Assembly: GCA_029194465.1 (NCBI GenBank)
Contig: JARFXS010000003.1
Coordinates: forward strand, 7,504 to 71,503
Direction of reading: 5' to 3'
Origin: Candidatus Nitrosocosmicus sp.
GTDB taxonomy: Archaea; Thermoproteota; Nitrososphaeria; Nitrososphaerales; Nitrososphaeraceae
DNA length: 64,000 nucleotides
The translations under genes were made by a program, and so were the position numbers. Positions 16,848 to 60,482 of this stretch are shown here, in pieces; position 1 is the stretch's first letter, and each line of letters begins with the position of its first letter. The notes beneath the pieces were generated by a model. It had not been told where the DNA came from and did no database searches. It worked only from the letters and a program-made list of their open reading frames with translations.

Positions 16848-17129
16848 ATGACTAGACTCGTTGCACGGATCAAGATCCTTCCAGCAGATTCAGAAACTGA
16901 TATGGAATCATTAGCAAATGTTCTAAAATCAAATGTTCCTGAGGGCATGGAATTGAAGGCACACGCTAAAGAGCCAATAGCATTTGGCCTAAATGCGCTT
17001 GTTGGTGATTTCCTATTAGACGATGCCGAAGGAGAAATGGAAAAGCTGGAAGAATCCATAAAAAAAGTTGAAGGTGCTGGAGAAATTCAAGTCATCAATA
17101 TTAGCAGACAGTCTGTAAAGATGAAATAA
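16848..17129 (+). CDS. ef1b: Translation elongation factor 1-beta
   Basis: 93 residues, the full length of archaeal aEF-1 beta (RLVARIKILPADSETDME...PIAFGLNALVGDFLLDD). It is the nucleotide exchange factor that recycles EF-1 alpha, which is encoded at 46484-47797. It is the second gene of an apparent operon with the zinc-ribbon protein and is followed by the broken CDC48 gene. Confidence 0.94.
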   Translation: MTRLVARIKILPADSETDMESLANVLKSNVPEGMELKAHAKEPIAFGLNALVGDFLLDDAEGEMEKLEESIKKVEGAGEIQVINISRQSVKMK

Positions 17130-17156
17130 TATCTAATAGTTAGCATCCGGATTGAT

Positions 17157-19324
<2,168 letters not shown>

Positions 19325-19381
19325 TAAAATATTTTATGGTTAATTAGATTAGAGAAAATATCTTATTTCTAAACCTATAAT

Positions 19382-19612
19382 ATGCTCCAAGTTAAAATTG
19401 ATATTGTGAACTATCCTATAAGAAATATTATATTTGAAAAGATTAAACAGTTAGGTACTACTACCGACCAAGATTTGCTTAATTTCTCTGTCTAAGGATG
19501 GTGTTAGTGTATTAGAAGACGAATTCAACAAAGTATTATTGGACCTGAAATTTTATGGCCTTATTAGGTTGTCAGTTGGTTGACAAAGGATGATAAAAGA
19601 GAATCGAGTTAA
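19382..19612 (+). pseudogene. Small winged-helix-type protein, frameshifted
   Basis: Starts M-L-Q-V-K-I-D-I-V-N-Y-P-I-R-N-I-I-F-E-K and, after a one-base shift at about 19480, continues SLSKDGVSVLEDEFNKVLLD and LKFYGLIRLS. A further shift gives SWLTKDDKR. The pattern (a helix pair then a short beta wing ending WxTKDxRRIE) is like small thaumarchaeal DNA-binding proteins. It lies between broken CDC48 and ctaB. Confidence 0.55.
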
Positions 19613-19633
19613 CCCAATGAATGATTAACTGGT

Positions 19634-20550
19634 TTACTCCATAAAGGTACATGAATCTACAAAAAATCTAAGCGACCATAATGAGTCAGAGGTTATCGCA
19701 ACAAAATTATCACTAGATAGGGTGCTGTTACTTTGTATGCCTTCCATGCTAATTCTGGTGTTGATCTTTCAAAAAGTTTGTAATGGTATAAAGTCATTAG
19801 TGATCCAGACACTGCTGCTACACCTAAATATAAACCTAATCCAAAAAAATACATGAAAGTGAATAAGGAATCAATATCAAAGAATTTATGAAAATATATT
19901 TAGCCGTTACTTGATTACCATATAACCGAAGATGGGGCACGCCTTTTGAATATTCTTTCTTTGTTTGATGGCTACACCAGAAATGAGGAGGTGTCCACAT
20001 AAAGACAATCCATCCTAACAAAAATCTAAAAACATCAATACTATTTGTGGTTGTGGCCCAACCTGCCATAGCAGCTGCACTTCCTGCGAATCTCCAATTA
20101 CGATATTCCAAACAGTCCTTCTCTTAAGAAGTAATGTGTGTAAATAACTACGTAGAAAAAAATTCCCAAACCTATCATAAAAGTTGCCATTGGATTTAAT
20201 GAACCATGAGAGGACAACTGATATCACACACAGAGCCAAGCCATATATCAATAATATTTGCCTCAATCTGCCTGATGGAATCGGTCTCTTATTGTTCTTC
20301 CCATCAAATTATCGATATTCTTATCATAAAATTGATTTATTGCGCTTGTTCATTGGAATAGTGGATCCACTAATGATTAGAAACAATAATTTCATCCAGA
20401 AACATCCCAGCTCGTGTTTGGCATCGTCAAATCTAGTCGCTGCAACATAGAGGTTACCGCTGTAATGATTTATATAACTACAATTCGCGGTTTTGAAACC
20501 TCGATATAATCCTTAATCGCAGAAGATTCTACTCGACCACTCAATGACAC
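19634..20550 (-). pseudogene. ctaB: Protoheme IX farnesyltransferase (heme O synthase), disrupted
   Basis: UbiA-family prenyltransferase pieces are in order on the minus strand. They are IKDYIEVSKPRIVV (about 20515), YDKNIDNLMGRT-like remnants, RPIPSGRLRQI, LIYGLALCVISVVLSWF and [20 protein letters not shown]. Next come [11 protein letters not shown] and TPELAWKAYKVTAPYLV, with SLWSLRFFVDSCTFME-stop at 19634. The D-box, with its NxxxDxxxD pattern, is damaged and there are about eight frame changes. It would farnesylate heme B for terminal oxidases. The stop is 21 bp past the winged-helix remnant (convergent). Confidence 0.8.
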
Positions 20551-20738
20551 AGGTTTTCAATAATAAAGACCTAATCCTGAATTTAACTCATTCGATGCAC
20601 AAGTAAACTGAATATCGCGTCAATTATTTAATATCTTCTTTTTTTATCTATTTTTGGATTTTTTTTGAGGTCTTTAGTTGGCCGGTAGACCATTTTACAA
20701 ATCCTTCTATCAATTCTCTTTATATTATTTGAGATACA

Positions 20739-20993
20739 CTAGAAGCCTGCAAAAATTTTTTCATATGTTTTGCAACAAACAACCATATTTGTTATTGCGT
20801 CATTGATAAAGTCATTTTTATTGTTCTTTATGTAATTCTCCTTAAATTCATCAAGTAATCTATTAGTTCTTTTAGTTATTTCATCTATCCCGACGATATC
20901 TTCATACCTTTTATCATTGTCGAACAACTTGACTGTACAATTATTGTAAGAAGAATATTTATTAATGTATATATAAAACAAACCGAACATCAA
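20739..20993 (-). CDS. Hypothetical protein, up to 84 aa
   Basis: An open frame whose last 60 residues look protein-like (DKRYEDIVGIDEITKRTNRL, then LDEFKENYIKN). The first residues are encoded over a TATATATA-rich stretch, so the true start may be the TTG at 20927. No recognisable domain. It lies between the decayed ctaB and the winged-helix/ATPase pair. Confidence 0.35.
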   Translation of the reverse strand: MMFGLFYIYINKYSSYNNCTVKLFDNDKRYEDIVGIDEITKRTNRLLDEFKENYIKNNKNDFINDAITNMVVCCKTYEKIFAGF

Positions 20994-21174
20994 ACGGTAC
21001 CAATATAGGTCAGATACCCTAGTGCTCTCATCATTATTTTATCAGACAAATGTATCATCATTCCCATGGATCTCAATCATATAAATTAATTCTTATATTT
21101 GTTTATTTTTTTTTACAGCATAATTATTTTTTATTCACTATCTTTTTTTTATCTTGTTTTTTTATTTTGCTAGT

Positions 21175-21831
21175 ATGTCCGACTTAGCTATGATCTACAA
21201 TGATATTAATTCTTTTGGATCTACAGGAGTCAAGAAATCTGAATTAAAAAAAAAATATCCTGAGGATAATTTTGAGAATACCTTAAATGAACTAGCATCA
21301 CAGGATAAAATATGCATATCTAAAAAAGGAACATATGTATATTGCTGGGCTAAGGAGTATTATCTCGATCACCTACTCTTATCAGATATAAAATTCAAAT
21401 ATCTATACGATTCTATAATAGGTATTCAGCAGAAACTAAACAACTACTCTGATAGCATATTTAAATATGTAGAAAAAATTGACTGCGAATTAGTAGAAGT
21501 TAAGAATTCCTTCAATAGAATCGAGGATAAAATAAATAACATAAAAGTAGATTCTAGTAACATTGATTATGATAATAATCAAATATCTATTGATACTTTC
21601 AAAGAACACTTTGATAGAGCAATTGTAAATCGTTCAACTTCAATCGGCTGGGTAGAACTGTCTTTGGTTAAGGACGAGTTGTGTGAATCATGCGACCTTT
21701 CCAGTAATGAATTTTACACCCTTGTAAGTGAACTCATTGAGTTGTATCCAGAAAAATATGAATTATCATCTGGAGGTTATGAAGGAGTAGTCTTAAGAGG
21801 AATAGTCCATGGGTTTGTGAGGTGCATATGA
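21175..21831 (+). CDS. Winged-helix and coiled-coil protein, partner of the downstream ATPase
   Basis: 218 residues from ATG 21175. Residues 1-60 resemble a winged helix (IYNDINSFGSTGVKKSELKK, then a KGTYVYCW wing). Residues about 65-115 are a predicted coiled coil (YDSIIGIQQKLNNYSDSIFK...EVKNSFNRIEDKINN). The C-terminal 85 residues form a second helical/winged module ending VLRGIVHGFVRCI. The TGA stop overlaps the next gene's ATG as ATGA, so translation is coupled. It has no family that I recognise. The layout suggests a DNA- or partner-sensing subunit for the ATPase. Confidence 0.7.
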   Translation: MSDLAMIYNDINSFGSTGVKKSELKKKYPEDNFENTLNELASQDKICISKKGTYVYCWAKEYYLDHLLLSDIKFKYLYDSIIGIQQKLNNYSDSIFKYVEKIDCELVEVKNSFNRIEDKINNIKVDSSNIDYDNNQISIDTFKEHFDRAIVNRSTSIGWVELSLVKDELCESCDLSSNEFYTLVSELIELYPEKYELSSGGYEGVVLRGIVHGFVRCI

Positions 21832-23459
21832 TGGCACCATATAATTTGACCGTTAATCCTTTTCCTAGTAGTCCCACACCCACTTTATCCAGTGCTAATA
21901 TTCTTGGGGGGAAAAGGCACATCGCAGCACTAAATTCAATTAAGGATTGCTTGAACGAATTAAACTTGAAATTAAATAGTACAGAGCCTCTAAATGAAGA
22001 TCTATTCAAGATAGTCTCTGTAATCCAAGATGTGGGATCAGGTAAAACACATTTAACGCTGCATATGAGGACTTTACCTGAAATCAATGATAAATCAATT
22101 ATTTCATACGTCGACTTAACTCAAGTTCAACCCAGAGAGATCGATAATTTTTTTCATTCTATTGTAAGAGGATTTGGAAAAGAATACTTTGACTCTATAA
22201 AGACAAAGTTAATTGATTACCTAAAAGACAGTTATGTACAGAATCCAAAGTTAGTAAAGAAGATAGTCAAATACGGATTTTTTGATTCACTCAATGGGAA
22301 CTCAATATCTGAAAAGATAGAACAAATGGGTGAAAAAAAAATAAAAATATCTTACGAACATTTATTTGAATTAATGTCAAGTGATTTTACCAAAATAGAG
22401 ACACATCTAATTACTGAAATTATCAAGACAGGAACATTAAACTATTCCGATCTAAAAACATTTGAAAATCTTACTATGGTCTTAACCAACTTGGCAATGA
22501 TCAACTATAAACTGTTCAAGAAAATTACCATTTTTCAAATCGATGAGTTTGACACCAACATAAATTCCTTGGATTATTTGAAGGGATTAATTAATTCTCA
22601 TGTTCCGTATGCTCTGTTTATGATAGTGACTACCCCTTCCTTGTATGCTGATATTTCAAAGATCAATCCATCACTTTTCGATCGCCTTGAAAAGGCAAAT
22701 TATAAAATTGATTTGGCAGGATCCAATTCCTTCGATGAAATAAATAGCATTGTTCTTCAGTATGTGCTGCATTATAACAGTGAACTTTCATCATCAGAAA
22801 GGAAAGATCTTTCATCAAAAATAAAAATAATTTATGATGAATTTCCAGATTTTCGGAACATTAGATCTATTTTAAATGTCTTGTATCATGCCTTTGAAAT
22901 GTCTGTAAAGAAGAATTCTTCGAACATAGATGAGCAATCAATAGAAGAGACGATCAAAAATGTCTATCCTGGGTTGCGGTTGAGAGGAAGTATCATGGGA
23001 ATACCGATATCGGATTTTATTAAAATGAGAAAAATATCAGTTGATAAAGATATTGTAGAATCGAATGTAAAAGACGCCGTCAGAAATTTGATTAGCTATT
23101 TTGATGAATTGGGAACTGTAAAAAAGTATGAAGAAAAGATCGAAACCGATTATTTAGACGCAATATATAACGATCAAATGGGAAAAAAGGTCGGTATATC
23201 GATCGCAGTCGATTCTGATAAGAATAAAAACTTTGACAAGATTGTTAAAAGCACTAAAAAGAATTCAGTAGTTGATAAATTAGTAATTTTGACTACCAAT
23301 ATTACAAACATAAAAAGAAATGGTACTACCCTAGTAACCATTGACAAATGGAAACTAGCTGATTTGCTCTACTTCAGCAAAAAATACGATAGTGACGAGA
23401 TCAAATCAGAGGATCCACAAAAGGCAATATTACTCGCAAAGTCAATTCAAATCTGCTAA
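21828..23459 (+). CDS. P-loop ATPase of AAA+/STAND-like type, unknown system
   Basis: About 543 residues from ATG 21828. The N-terminus NLTVNPFPSSPTPTLSSANI followed by LGGKRH recalls the NPF...P entry of ExeA/TniB/ORC-like AAA proteins. Walker A is DVGSGKTHL at about residue 73 and Walker B is KITIFQIDEFD at about 240. A sensor-like MIVTTPSLY follows. The middle holds a long helical insertion. Residues 395-500 form a C-terminal domain that ends in alternating strands (GKKVGISIAVDSD, VDKLVILTTN), loosely like a nuclease-fold core, but no E-x-K is present. It is likely a regulated ATPase working with the upstream winged-helix protein. Function is unknown. Confidence 0.75.
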   Translation: MMAPYNLTVNPFPSSPTPTLSSANILGGKRHIAALNSIKDCLNELNLKLNSTEPLNEDLFKIVSVIQDVGSGKTHLTLHMRTLPEINDKSIISYVDLTQVQPREIDNFFHSIVRGFGKEYFDSIKTKLIDYLKDSYVQNPKLVKKIVKYGFFDSLNGNSISEKIEQMGEKKIKISYEHLFELMSSDFTKIETHLITEIIKTGTLNYSDLKTFENLTMVLTNLAMINYKLFKKITIFQIDEFDTNINSLDYLKGLINSHVPYALFMIVTTPSLYADISKINPSLFDRLEKANYKIDLAGSNSFDEINSIVLQYVLHYNSELSSSERKDLSSKIKIIYDEFPDFRNIRSILNVLYHAFEMSVKKNSSNIDEQSIEETIKNVYPGLRLRGSIMGIPISDFIKMRKISVDKDIVESNVKDAVRNLISYFDELGTVKKYEEKIETDYLDAIYNDQMGKKVGISIAVDSDKNKNFDKIVKSTKKNSVVDKLVILTTNITNIKRNGTTLVTIDKWKLADLLYFSKKYDSDEIKSEDPQKAILLAKSIQIC

Positions 23460-23609
23460 CTAGTAAATACCCGTCCTCAGTATCTCACAATGATCTAATT
23501 TATATTTTAATAATTTTCAAGTTGTTCTGTAAACTTGAAGAAAAACTTGAATTCCCTTGAAGATTTCTAGCTAATGTTCACAAGCTGGGTTTTTCTATAA
23601 TCGACTATA

Positions 23610-23930
23610 ATGGAACTAATGTTCTGCTTACTCCTCGAAAATGTTCAATTTGAAAATATTATTAGTAAATCATATGGCAAACCGAACTTGATTGATACTA
23701 ACTTAAATATTTATGATGACGGACACCATGTTTTTGTAAATTTGAACATAAACTTTCTTAATGCCGATCTTGAATTTGATTTCTTACTATTCGCAAATGA
23801 AAGTATCGATTTTTTTAGATTCCTTGCAACGGCTGGAATGTTAGGTATTGCACCTCATGAATCTAAAAGCAGTAATATTTTTTTCGTTCAATTACCCAAA
23901 AAGATCAAGCCGAAAAAGCATTTGAGTTAA
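23610..23930 (+). CDS. Hypothetical protein, 106 aa
   Basis: Intact frame from ATG 23610. The protein is acidic and beta-rich in prediction (ENIISKSYGKPNLIDTNLNI, then DADLEFDF-like NADLEFDFLLF). It ends with a lysine-rich tail (LPKKIKPKKHLS). No domain recognised. It follows the ATPase by 150 bp but need not be in its operon. Confidence 0.5.
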   Translation: MELMFCLLLENVQFENIISKSYGKPNLIDTNLNIYDDGHHVFVNLNINFLNADLEFDFLLFANESIDFFRFLATAGMLGIAPHESKSSNIFFVQLPKKIKPKKHLS

Positions 23931-24057
23931 TCAAATCAAAAATCAATTAGCTGATAATGTTTTTCTTATTTTAACTTTATGAACACGGATTCAGTCATTT
24001 GTATTTTCTATATATTTGTTTTAAATAACCGATTGGTTTTTCAATAATTGTTCTAAT

Positions 24058-41643: not shown

Positions 41644-44600
41644 ATGAAATTGGGGGATAAATTTGAGCTAAAGACATTTGAAAATCAAGTTAGAGCATAT
41701 TATGATGATCCCACAATAAAAAAAAACATCAACGAATACCTTAGAGATCCTGAAAATTTCAAAAAGACGATAGGTTACGTAGAAGGTCCGCCTACTATGA
41801 ATGGGGAGCCACACCTTGGTCATCTAAGAGGGAGAATAATTAAAGATCTCTGGTTTAGAAAATCTACCTTAGAAAAAAAGAAAATGGAGTTTCAACCAGG
41901 CTGGGATTCGCAAGGATTACCGGTCGAACTTCAAGCAGAAAAGATTCTAGGTTTAACCGGAAATAAATCAGATAATCTCCGGAAAGTTGGAATCAAGAAG
42001 ATCGTCGAAACATGTAAAAAATTGATTCTTGAATATAACAAAAAATGGGTAGAAGTAGATAGTTTGATTGGAATGTCTTTCAATTATGATAAAGGCTACT
42101 GGACTTATACAGATACATATATTGAAAGAGAATGGAAGTACATCAGCAAAGCATTAGAAGATGGGATATTGAGGGAATGGTTTCGAGTTGTAGCATATTG
42201 TCCATCTTGTCAAACGTCTTTAAGTAATGCTGAAATCAATCAAAGTTATGAACAGGTAGAAGATCCTTCATTCTATTATAAGGTAAAACTAAAGGAATCA
42301 GCAACATTCCTAGTGGTATGGACCACAATGCCTTTTACATTAATTACCGACGAATTGGTGGGTGTGAATCCAGAGGCTCAATATTTAACATTAGAGGTGG
42401 ATTTTAAAGGCAAAAATGAAAAATGGATTGTCTCCGAAAATAGAGTTAAAGAATTAATGGCCGACTTGAAGATTGAAAATTATGAAGTAGTCGATACATT
42501 CTTGGGCATAAAACTAGAAGGCCAGTATTACATTCATCCCCTCATAGAAAATATACCCGGATTGAATGATCTTTCCTCCCAAGGAAAAATCCATTTTGTA
42601 GTCGCAGAAAATTTTGTGGATGTTACTACGGGAAGTGGAATTGTTCACTTATCCCCAGCCAATGGAGAAGAGGACTTTGAAATAGCAAATAGACGTAAAA
42701 TACCGATCTTTGTACCCATTGATGACAAGGTATGCTTTACTAAAGATGCCGGCAAGTACCAAAATCAATTCGTAAGAGATGTTGACCCAATAGTTGTTAA
42801 TGATATGCAATTGACAGATTCGGTGGTAAAGATAGGCAGGATAACCCATAAGTACCCTACTTGTTGGCGATCTCATCACAAAATAGTTTGGTTGGCAAGG
42901 AAGGAGTATTTCTATATGATTGATGTTTTAGGAGATCAACCTATAGTTGCTGCGTCAAAGGTAAACTATTTCTACGAGCAACCAAAAAATCGGTTTCAAG
43001 AGATTATTAGAGAAAAGGTTCCTTGGTGTATATCGCGAGAACGAGTATGGGGTACACCACTCCCAATTTGGAAATGTACCAAATGTTCTTTTAAAGAAGG
43101 GTTATTTTCCAGGAAGGCAATTATCGCAAGAGCATCTTATTTGCCTGATGGAGAAACCTTTGAATTACACAGGCCTTGGATAGATGAGGTATTAATCGAC
43201 TGTCCCAAATGTCAAAATAAAATGAAGAGAGAATTATTTGTCTTAGATACATGGCATAACAGCGGCAGTGCCCCTTATTCATCACTTTCCGATGTAGAAT
43301 ACGATACATTAATTCCAGCTGAATTCTTGACGGAGGGGATTGACCAAACCCGGGGTTGGGCATACACTTTATTGATGCTAAATGTTATCTTTAAAAAAAG
43401 TCCCCAATCTCCTTTTCAATCGTTCCTGTTCACGGGGCATGTTTTGGATGATAAAGGAAACAAGATGAGCAAGAGTTTAGGAAATGTGGTTGATGCAAAA
43501 TCCCTACTAACCGACAATTCTGTGGACTTAATAAGACTTTACTTCATATGGAAATCATCTCCGATAGAGCCGTGAAATTTTGACATTAGGGAAATGTCTT
43601 CTAGACCTCATCAGGTTTTAAGTACACTTTTTTTCTTACACATTTATTATCAGCAAAATGCGAACTATGATCAATTCAAATTCACTGATTGGTACTCAAG
43701 ATCGGGTTGGAAGGCAAAGGATCTTTCATTGAGGAGTCAAGACGTTTGGATCTTGACAAAGCTTAGAGACTTGATCGATGAATCCTCTCATTTGTTAAGT
43801 AGCTGTAGATTTCATGAAGCTTCTCATGCGGTTGAGGACTTTATAATAAATTCATTGAGTCAAACGTATGTTCCTTTAATAAGATATGATCTTTGGAGCG
43901 ATGATCTTGATAACCAGAATAGGAGGTTTACTGTATATAGAATCCTATCTCGATGTTTATTGACAATTGATATCATACTTCATCCTATTTGTCCATTTTT
44001 TACTGAATATCTTTACCAATCATGCTTCAAGCAGTTTGATTCAATTCTGATGGAAAATCTGCCTGGAAGTGAAGAATTAGACATGATAGCTAATAAAAAA
44101 GTTGAAGCAGCATTTGACAAGATCAAAGGAATCTCATCCTTATCATTTTCATTGAGAAACCGACACAAGTTGAAAAGGAGGTGGCCGTTAGAATCAGCAC
44201 AGATTTACCTTGATGAGATTGAATTTCTAAAAGTGGTAGGGATAAAAGAATTGTTAAAAGAACAAATGAACGTTGAAAATATTGAAGTTAAGAATTTCAG
44301 GGCAAATAATATTGTTGAAAAAATATTAAATTTGATGAACCTTAAAGCTCCAATCATACCATCAATTACCATAAACAGAAAAAGTGTTGCCAAGATTGTT
44401 AAAAGCGATATTGGCATATTAATTGACAAGTTTGAAAGTGAAGATAAAATACAGATTCTAAAGCAATTGCAAGTGAAGGGGTTTTATCATTTAGATTATT
44501 CACCAAATAAATCAATAGATTTGACGATGACCGACATGGATTTTACATTTATCCCAAGGAACGGTTATGTGATAGGGGAGAAAGAAAATACAATTCTCCT

Positions 44601-44892
44601 GATAAATACTTCTAGAAACGAAGAATTAATTATAAAGGGTTTGGTAAAGGATTTGGCTCGAAATATTCAGCAACTTCGAAAAGAATTGGGATATTCTCCT
44701 ACCCAAATACTTGATACCGCATATATTTCCAATTTATCTCCTGAAGAAATTTCAAAATTACTCAATTTTGAAATAGATCTAAAGAATTTGGTACGGGTAA
44801 ACAGGATTGAATTTTCAAATAAGACCGATGAAGATAAAGGATTTAAAAAAATAGAATTAGACGGTAGAGAAATTTCACTTTATATACTTTAG
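41644..44892 (+). pseudogene. ileS: Isoleucyl-tRNA synthetase with an in-frame TGA
   Basis: The two ORFs 41644-43575 and 43576-44892 are in one frame, separated only by TGA at 43573-43575. The class I HIGH motif lies in GPPTMNGEPHLGHLRGR, and KMSKS in DKGNKMSKSLGNVV. The context at the stop is SSPIEP-stop-NFDIREMSSRP, where Trp is the simplest sense reading (TGG to TGA). The rest, about 1080 residues with the anticodon-binding and C-terminal domains, is undamaged. IleRS is essential, so read-through, error or a second copy must be considered. Confidence 0.9.
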
Positions 44893-59325: not shown

Positions 59326-60482
59326 TTGAGAGGGACAAAAAAATTCCGACTTTATTAAACAGAATAATAGATTATAAAGCAAAACTAATTCTAGATGATG
59401 GTTCTATTTTTGAAGGCAAAGGATTTGGCTTTCCAACAAGTGTGTCAGGAGAAATAGTGTTCAATACTGGTATGGTCGGGTATACCGAAACACTTACTGA
59501 TCCATCATACCGGGGTCAAATATTGTGTTTTACATATCCTTCTATTGGTAATTACGGCGTTCCATCTCAGCAGGAATTAGACGATTTTGGTTTACCCAAA
59601 TTTTTTGAATCTGAGAGAATTCAAACAAGAGGTATGATAGTTAATAATTTATCAAATGTCTCAAGTCACTGGTTATGTGAGAGGACTCTAGATCAATGGC
59701 TATTTGACGAGAAAATTCCAGGGGTTTGTGATGTGGATACCAGAGAGTTAACAAAAAAGATTAGGTCGAATGGCGTCATGAATGCTAGGATCATAATGGA
59801 AAAGTCTGAAAACCAGGACGATGAAACTTTTGATTATGATTCTTATAATTTTATGCCGGAGGTATCAATTAGCAAGCCTACCTATTACGGAAAAGGGTCA
59901 TCTCCAAAAATAGTACTAATTGATACCGGTACTAAATCTAGCATTATATGAAACCTTTTAAGACTTGGATTCCAGGTAGTGAGGTTGCCTTGGAACTCCT
60001 CAATAGATCAGGTAATAGCCCAGAACCCGGCTGGTGTGGTTCTCAGCAACGGTCCCGGGGATCCGATAGTATGTAAAGAAACTATAGAGACTGCTTCTGA
60101 GCTAATAGAAAGATCCATCCCTACGCTTGGCATATGTTTAGGCAATCAAATTCTTGCTTTGGCAGGAGGTGCAAAAACACACAAGTTAAAATTTGGACAT
60201 AGGGGTCAAAATAAAAGCTGTCGGGACCTAGTTTCAGAGCATACCCTAATAACAAGTCAGAACCATGGATATGGAATCGAGACAGAGAGCCTAGACAAGA
60301 CTGATTTTGAAATATGGTTCAAGAATATTGATGATCAGACAGTTGAAGGCATAAAACACATGGAGAAGCCAGTTATAGCAGTACAGTTTCATCCTGAAGC
60401 CTCACCTGGTCCTGACGACTGCTTGTATGTCTTTGATAAGTTTAAAGATCTAGTAAAGACACATAAAATCGTGACACCATAG
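59326..60482 (+). pseudogene. carA: Carbamoyl-phosphate synthase small subunit, disrupted
   Basis: The N-terminal domain KLILDDGSIFEGKGFGFPTS, VFNTGMVGYTETLTDPSYRG is in one frame; joining it to a start (TTG 59326) needs one more A in the run at 59337-59343. The glutamine amidotransferase domain has VVLSNGPGDP, TLGICLGNQILALAGG (catalytic Cys) and VQFHPEASPGP (His, Glu). Between the domains TGA at 59949-59951 interrupts DTGTKSSII-stop-NLLRLGF, at a position that is Arg in many CarA proteins (CGA to TGA). CarA supplies ammonia from glutamine to CarB. Confidence 0.85.

Follow-up and report, generated by a model that had tools for sequence, protein, structure and literature searches.

A winged-helix and AAA+ ATPase gene pair of ammonia-oxidising archaea, probably descended from a nuclease-bearing Thermoproteota module

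Several described systems come close to the gene pair presented here. The BREX ATPases BrxC and BrxD (DUF6079, PF10923) are AAA+ proteins of the ORC/Cdc6 clade with an insert after strand 2 and a lid, BrxC itself carrying winged helices and a coiled coil. Orc1/Cdc6 proteins belong to the same AAA+ clade and exhibit a C-terminal winged helix (PF09079), and in ATPases of the TniB, MuB, TnsC and ExeA types an NPF..P segment precedes the Walker A motif. In arCOG03166, an AAA+ ATPase is fused to an HTH and a RecB nuclease, with a likely function in defence (PMC4158269). Besides, the archaeal RecJ/GAN/Cdc45 proteins, where the nuclease was inactivated independently in archaeal lineages and the protein kept as a chromosomal factor (PMC3307487), are unrelated to the present pair in fold and partners and serve here as a precedent for inactivation.

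The pair lies in a stretch of 64,000 nucleotides, hereafter the window, from a 3.3 Mb genome (263 contigs) of the genus Ca. Nitrosocosmicus. Both open reading frames are intact and, like all features given below, on the + strand: gene 1 runs from an ATG at 21175 to a TGA at 21829-21831 (21175..21831, 218 aa) and gene 2 from an ATG at 21828 to a TAA at 23457-23459 (21828..23459, 543 aa), the two overlapping as ATGA at 21828-21831, as a preliminary description of the locus had stated. The AAA+, HTH and PD-(D/E)XK ingredients are the same as those fused within one protein in arCOG03166, and the winged helices and coiled coil that BrxC carries itself are here supplied by gene 1. Unlike BREX, the pair comprises a separate adaptor gene and a C-terminal PD-(D/E)XK-fold domain, and it is a core, vertically inherited component of the genome. 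Neither gene of the window has an above-cut-off Pfam family match, and NCBIfam, PHROGs and PADLOC returned nothing convincing for either protein; a sequence search of solved structures gave no match, a viral fold library only generic AAA+ matches, viral contigs no relative, and plasmid and phage records, searched with the Sulfolobaceae homologues, none either. Within the accessible text of the openly searchable literature, the pair is not described in work dealing with archaeal dark matter, the mobile elements of thaumarchaea or BREX, and no account of its function was found; it has apparently been undescribed until now. With moderate confidence, it is regarded here as the ammonia-oxidiser form of an ancient Thermoproteota module, whose ATPase would once have borne a working nuclease and probably acted against invaders, until repeated inactivation of the nuclease left it as a chromosomal DNA-dependent ATPase.

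Gene 1 has the layout of an adaptor, i.e. winged helix, coiled coil and winged helix, as seen in an AlphaFold2 model built on an alignment of named homologues (mean pLDDT 83), and its orthologues are adjacent to gene 2. The N-terminal winged helix (residues 3-59; 21181..21351), defined by the secondary structure of the model, has Foldseek matches to winged-helix proteins, e.g. of the Rpc34 and MarR types, and is followed by a long helix or coiled coil (residues 72-122; 21388..21540), likewise taken from the model. The second C-terminal module pointed out in the preliminary description, together with the winged helix and the coiled coil, turns out to be a second winged helix (residues 139-217; 21589..21825), delimited by alignments and found as the same module across Thermoproteales and Sulfolobaceae. 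It is the best conserved part of the protein, holding 17 of the 18 invariant alignment columns and the pattern GW..L..V, YELSSGG.EG..RG..HGFVR. From the modelled folds, gene 1 would bind DNA through its winged helices. In Nitrosocaldaceae, gene 1 reaches 405-626 aa, the coiled coil between the winged helices being longer and internally repetitive (L117:4124-6001, L068:8323-9537).

The resemblance of these winged helices to MarR and Rpc34 types, as well as sub-threshold STAND matches in distant relatives, could suggest a transcription regulator in which a STAND-like ATPase switches the DNA binding of the winged-helix protein. Such a role is very improbable, as two winged helices on a coiled coil whose length varies, together with an AAA+ with a long insert, better suit a DNA scaffold, and the families share no conserved neighbour that might be under its control. 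The best fold match of gene 1 is 8iue_P; the identity of gene 1 as an archaeal Rpc34 was rejected, no Rpc34 model (PF05158) being matched in the genome.

Gene 2 joins an AAA+ ATPase of the ORC/Cdc6-BrxC clade to a C-terminal PD-(D/E)XK-fold domain, as judged from homologue alignment, an AlphaFold2 model (alignment of named homologues, pLDDT 87) and fold and profile comparison. Strand 1 is followed in the model by Walker A, strand 2, a helical insert of ~125 residues, Walker B, an arginine, strand 5 and the lid. The N-terminal entry motif PYNLTVNPFPSSPTP (21837..21881), with the invariant residues Y5, L7, N10 and P11, aligns across families; Walker A (QDVGSGKTH, 22026..22052) contains G70, G72, K73, T74 and H75, invariant in 45 homologues, over which DVGSGKTH (residues 68-75), Walker B and the NPF..P motif are altogether nearly invariant. 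The long helical insert after strand 2 covers residues 105-230 (22140..22517) in the model, the Walker B strand and motif are placed by the homologue alignment in the FQIDEFD region (D239 and E240; 22524..22550), and the lid helices, supported by the model and by conservation, span residues 302-379 (22731..22964). By analogy, R286 (22683..22685), which is at least 90% conserved and precedes strand 5 (292-295), is a candidate arginine finger, and R346, within the lid, a candidate sensor 2. Walker A, Walker B, NPF..P segment, helical insert and C-terminal alpha/beta domain (407-539 in the model) had all been noticed beforehand in the sequence and are borne out by the 45-homologue alignment and AlphaFold2. 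One Nitrososphaeraceae genome encodes a second, diverged gene 2 paralogue (L080:8998-10713), with an altered Walker B and no finger arginine.

When compared with solved structures using Foldseek, gene 2 best matches the N-terminal part of BrxC (E 4e-7), with further matches to Drosophila ORC (E 5e-6), archaeal Cdc6 (6e-5) and MuB (8e-4). The likeness of the entry motif to ORC and TniB-type proteins, proposed in the preliminary description, is supported, and so is the broader proposal of a two-component, DNA-linked AAA+ system. Gene 2 is nonetheless not Orc1/Cdc6, an identity that had been envisaged: PF09079 is absent from gene 2 and matches elsewhere in the genome, and a direct relationship to Orc1/Cdc6 was set aside as the profile comparison with the ammonia-oxidiser gene 2 was not significant; MuB was discarded as a direct relative on the same ground. 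With the Sulfolobaceae gene 2 profile, the comparison to Orc1/Cdc6 reaches E 1.8e-7. Unlike TniB, TnsC and ExeA, gene 2 has no transposase partner at the pair and no match to a family model. It does not match PF01637, the model of the ATPase_2/DUF234-type archaeal ATPase-nucleases and the family that we take arCOG03166 to represent, and relatives match PF01637 below threshold. Neither BrxC_BrxD (PF10923) nor any PADLOC BREX model is matched by gene 2 of the window, and the window has no BREX locus at the pair, i.e. no PglZ, methyltransferase or other BREX genes, the neighbours being housekeeping genes.

These usual neighbours are genes for a glycosyltransferase, a ferredoxin, ribosomal L10e, Cdc48 and CtaB. 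Directly downstream of the pair, a third small co-directional gene is present in 28 of 47 loci (~139 aa in relatives; intact in L061; no Pfam match), the remains of which occupy 23535..23950 of the window with frame disruptions in this assembly. The pair had been described as sitting between a decayed block and ordinary genes; the ordinary genes are confirmed, but the block, upstream of the pair, is no old scar, as it consists of Cdc48 and CtaB, which form intact frames of 743 and 306 codons in a close relative (gene 2 98% identical), where the third gene is intact as well. Frame-broken housekeeping genes of the window, namely Cdc48, CtaB, the third gene, IleS and CarA, are located at 17087-20266, 23535-23950, 41644-44892 and 59442-60482. 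Because the close relative has unbroken versions of Cdc48, CtaB and the third gene, and since other housekeeping genes are broken too, the frame breaks are likely assembly indels or recent decay.

Among near genomes, counted like all genomes here from drawn samples, gene 2 is present in 92 of 201 and gene 1 in 83, all with gene 2 and never without it there. The pair, or gene 2, was recovered from 66 of 70 Nitrososphaeraceae genomes, the four others being 59-85% complete. Nitrosocaldaceae and certain genera of Nitrosopumilaceae type have it too, and with few exceptions it is present in single copy. Of the 200 genomes examined from the Nitrosopumilaceae-type family, 57 gave matches (one of them spurious), clustered in few genera, and only three genomes of the large, Nitrosopumilus-type genus g44 have one; the pair is missing from most marine Nitrosopumilaceae and is therefore dispensable there. 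The co-occurrence that the preliminary description had suggested looking for was indeed found in archaeal genomes, the two genes nearly always abutting (in 69 of 70 pairs the spacing lies between -23 and +4 nt), and this conservation is far beyond chance because orthologues of both genes stay paired in dozens of genomes. Homologues standing singly, which the preliminary description had named as speaking against its reading, exist in part: gene 2 occurs without a recognisable gene 1 in family f13 and in the three g44 genomes, and is otherwise usually beside gene 1. The f13 members (L076, L077, L078, L127 and L133) combine a solo gene 2 with a half-degenerate nuclease motif, the acid being lost and the lysine kept. 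Within ammonia oxidisers, the gene 2 tree agrees with taxonomy and the pair is vertically inherited. In G521, a 3.2 kb contig bears a full-length match that has no full-length counterpart elsewhere in the 81 genomes of the class; it may be contamination and is not the sole support for any of these statements.

Beyond ammonia oxidisers, a profile search led to Thermoproteia, where a shorter AAA+ gene of ~275 aa is preceded in the examined loci by a gene of ~170 aa with a gene 1-type C-terminal winged helix. A profile of this winged helix, containing no Sulfolobaceae sequence, gave matches down to E 1.6e-11 in 18 Sulfolobaceae-like genomes, again beside an AAA+ gene. Family f35 would correspond to Sulfolobaceae and families f26 and f38 to Thermoproteales, on a basis that includes gene content. 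In profile-profile comparison, gene 2 aligns with its Sulfolobaceae counterpart with 99.2% probability and E 6e-20 over 401 columns, reaching into the C-terminal domain, and with the Thermoproteales one at E 2.5e-15, and gene 1 aligns with its Sulfolobaceae counterpart at E 4e-18 over 168 columns. Because of these comparisons, the homology of the pair to the Sulfolobaceae and Thermoproteales genes, as read from sequence profiles, can be considered firm. The Sulfolobaceae and Thermoproteales pairs also abut.

The presence of a nuclease fold at the C-terminus of the ATPase, which the preliminary description had named as a finding that would support a system, is corroborated, with the triad lost in the window copy. 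This domain (23046..23456) appears to be a catalytically dead PD-(D/E)XK fold, as deduced from the element order in AlphaFold2 and from alignment with motif-bearing relatives, the Foldseek runs having covered gene 2 as a whole, and from motif counts and a weak Mrr_cat match (E 0.003 in an f13 relative, below cut-off). It aligns with sequences whose D...(D)xK triad is canonical (L169 and L165); in the window copy D444 is kept, the acid position is S458 and the lysine position A460. None of the 40 ammonia-oxidiser copies with a readable region has an intact triad: they usually retain the first D, mostly carry A, S or T in place of the acid, and have V, A, I, L, T or S at the lysine position, two f13 rows with the lysine kept and the acid lost standing outside this residue summary. 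In 18 Sulfolobaceae genomes, two classes were set by copy number or patchy presence, tree position and neighbours taken together, namely a core class of 18 copies, one per genome, with the full triad in 0/18 and the first D lost, mostly to G, and an accessory class of 9 copies in 9 of the 18 genomes, with the full triad in 9/9. In family f22, all six genomes with matches share a degenerate copy, and a second, intact copy is restricted to one genome; in Thermoproteales, gene 2 has no C-terminal nuclease domain. Intact-triad copies are scattered in the gene 2 tree, with at least three forced changes. Since lineages lost different residues and the intact copies are so scattered, separate inactivation of the nuclease in several lineages would be the simplest account of the sequences, some deep placements being on long branches, and the accessory class may conceivably derive from the core class.

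The accessory copies of Sulfolobaceae, which occupy variable genome regions, look like genes in a mobile or defence setting: as raw counts, 7 of 9 lie near CRISPR/cas, transposase, TnpB or PIN-like genes, and two of these beside CRISPR or cas. One copy (L281:6013-11756) has Cas3-type helicase and HD nuclease genes on one side and an AbrB/PIN-like gene pair on the other, for another the distance to a CRISPR array with 68 repeats is ~2.3 kb (L272:881-5240, L272:7524-9436), and a third, in L280, adjoins an IS607 transposase and TnpB. In L278, L292, L294 and L299, transposase-like, TnpB-like or PIN-like neighbours were judged by eye from sequence, NCBIfam naming none of those of L278; no mobile or defence-type neighbours were seen in L274 and L297. 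The defence idea of the preliminary description unexpectedly suits these accessory relatives, with the motif kept and, for several, cas3, a CRISPR array or insertion sequences alongside, but no defence island is supported for the window copy. For the latter, a defence or plasmid-maintenance module is not supported either, in view of its single-copy, vertical and motif-less state, its ordinary neighbours and its distance from orc1/cdc6.

The same accessory relatives, by cas3, the 68-copy CRISPR array and IS elements, might nevertheless indicate that the core pair itself acts in immunity: an ATPase sensing DNA in a BREX-like or type IV-like manner would use its dead nuclease domain for sensing or docking and block invaders without cleavage. 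BrxC is the nearest fold match, one Thermoproteales gene 2 orthologue passes the Pfam BrxC_BrxD cut-off narrowly (22.4 vs 22.2 bits), and inactive REases paired with NTPases have been proposed as nucleotide sensors in immunity (PMC12839542). This is rather unlikely for a pair that is single copy, vertical and in a stable ordinary neighbourhood, for which PADLOC gave no match and around which neither PglZ nor PglX nor any other effector was seen.

In the favoured reading, that of a nuclease-bearing ATPase turned chromosomal factor, gene 1 would be an adaptor, probably dimeric, with a DNA-binding winged helix at each coiled-coil end, and would recruit the gene 2 ATPase to DNA, where the latter would assemble in an ATP-dependent manner via its Walker motifs, arginine finger and lid. 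The PD-(D/E)XK domain would formerly have cut DNA and in core copies may at most bind DNA or a partner. The ancestor would have been a nuclease-bearing module of anti-invader type, a role that the accessory copies would keep, and several lineages would separately have inactivated the nuclease and retained the ATPase. For the core copies, the role we favour and infer is DNA-bound chromosome maintenance, in which they would assist replication, segregation or repair, and not restriction. Counted against this whole explanation are the restriction of the GINS-MCM linkage to one genus, the absence of the pair from most marine Nitrosopumilaceae, and the non-significant comparison of the ammonia-oxidiser gene 2 profile alone with Orc1/Cdc6. 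A bolder version is more tentative, possible but doubtful: that a Thermoproteota-wide core chromosome-maintenance complex arose from repeated independent nuclease inactivation, the intact accessory copies representing an undescribed archaeal anti-invader system circulating near CRISPR-Cas. Two anonymous genes are in any case placed in a module that ammonia oxidisers share with Sulfolobaceae and Thermoproteales; some of these archaea are genetically tractable, so that the function of the module is testable. Should the domestication be real, it would be a clear case of a defence ATPase-nuclease turned chromosomal factor several times, with nuclease-competent living relatives for comparison, and would add an archaeal branch to the ORC/Cdc6-BrxC family.

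Regarding replication, GINS and MCM directly follow the pair on the same strand in all four genomes of one Thermoproteales genus (L224-L227), and Pyrobaculum-like genomes exhibit an endonuclease III-like neighbour, judged from sequence; such lineage-specific neighbours hint at replication or repair. The position directly upstream of GINS-MCM, an AAA+ of the ORC/Cdc6 clade and a partner with winged helices would also be expected of an alternative replication initiator or helicase loader, comparable to Orc1/Cdc6 plus a Cdt1/WhiP-like partner. This is quite improbable, given that canonical Orc1/Cdc6 is encoded by this genome as well as by each of 14 others checked, that most marine Nitrosopumilaceae do without the pair, that gene 2 is devoid of the Cdc6 C-terminal winged helix, and that, over nine complete genomes, 0.21-0.44 of the genome length separates the pair from orc1/cdc6, distances by which proximity to the origin was rejected. 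As a side observation, two equal-scoring Orc1/Cdc6 C-terminal matches lie 2.6 kb apart on one contig of the genome that contains the window (G000:C257:18136-18405, 20725-20994), reflecting either a tandem duplication or an assembly artefact.
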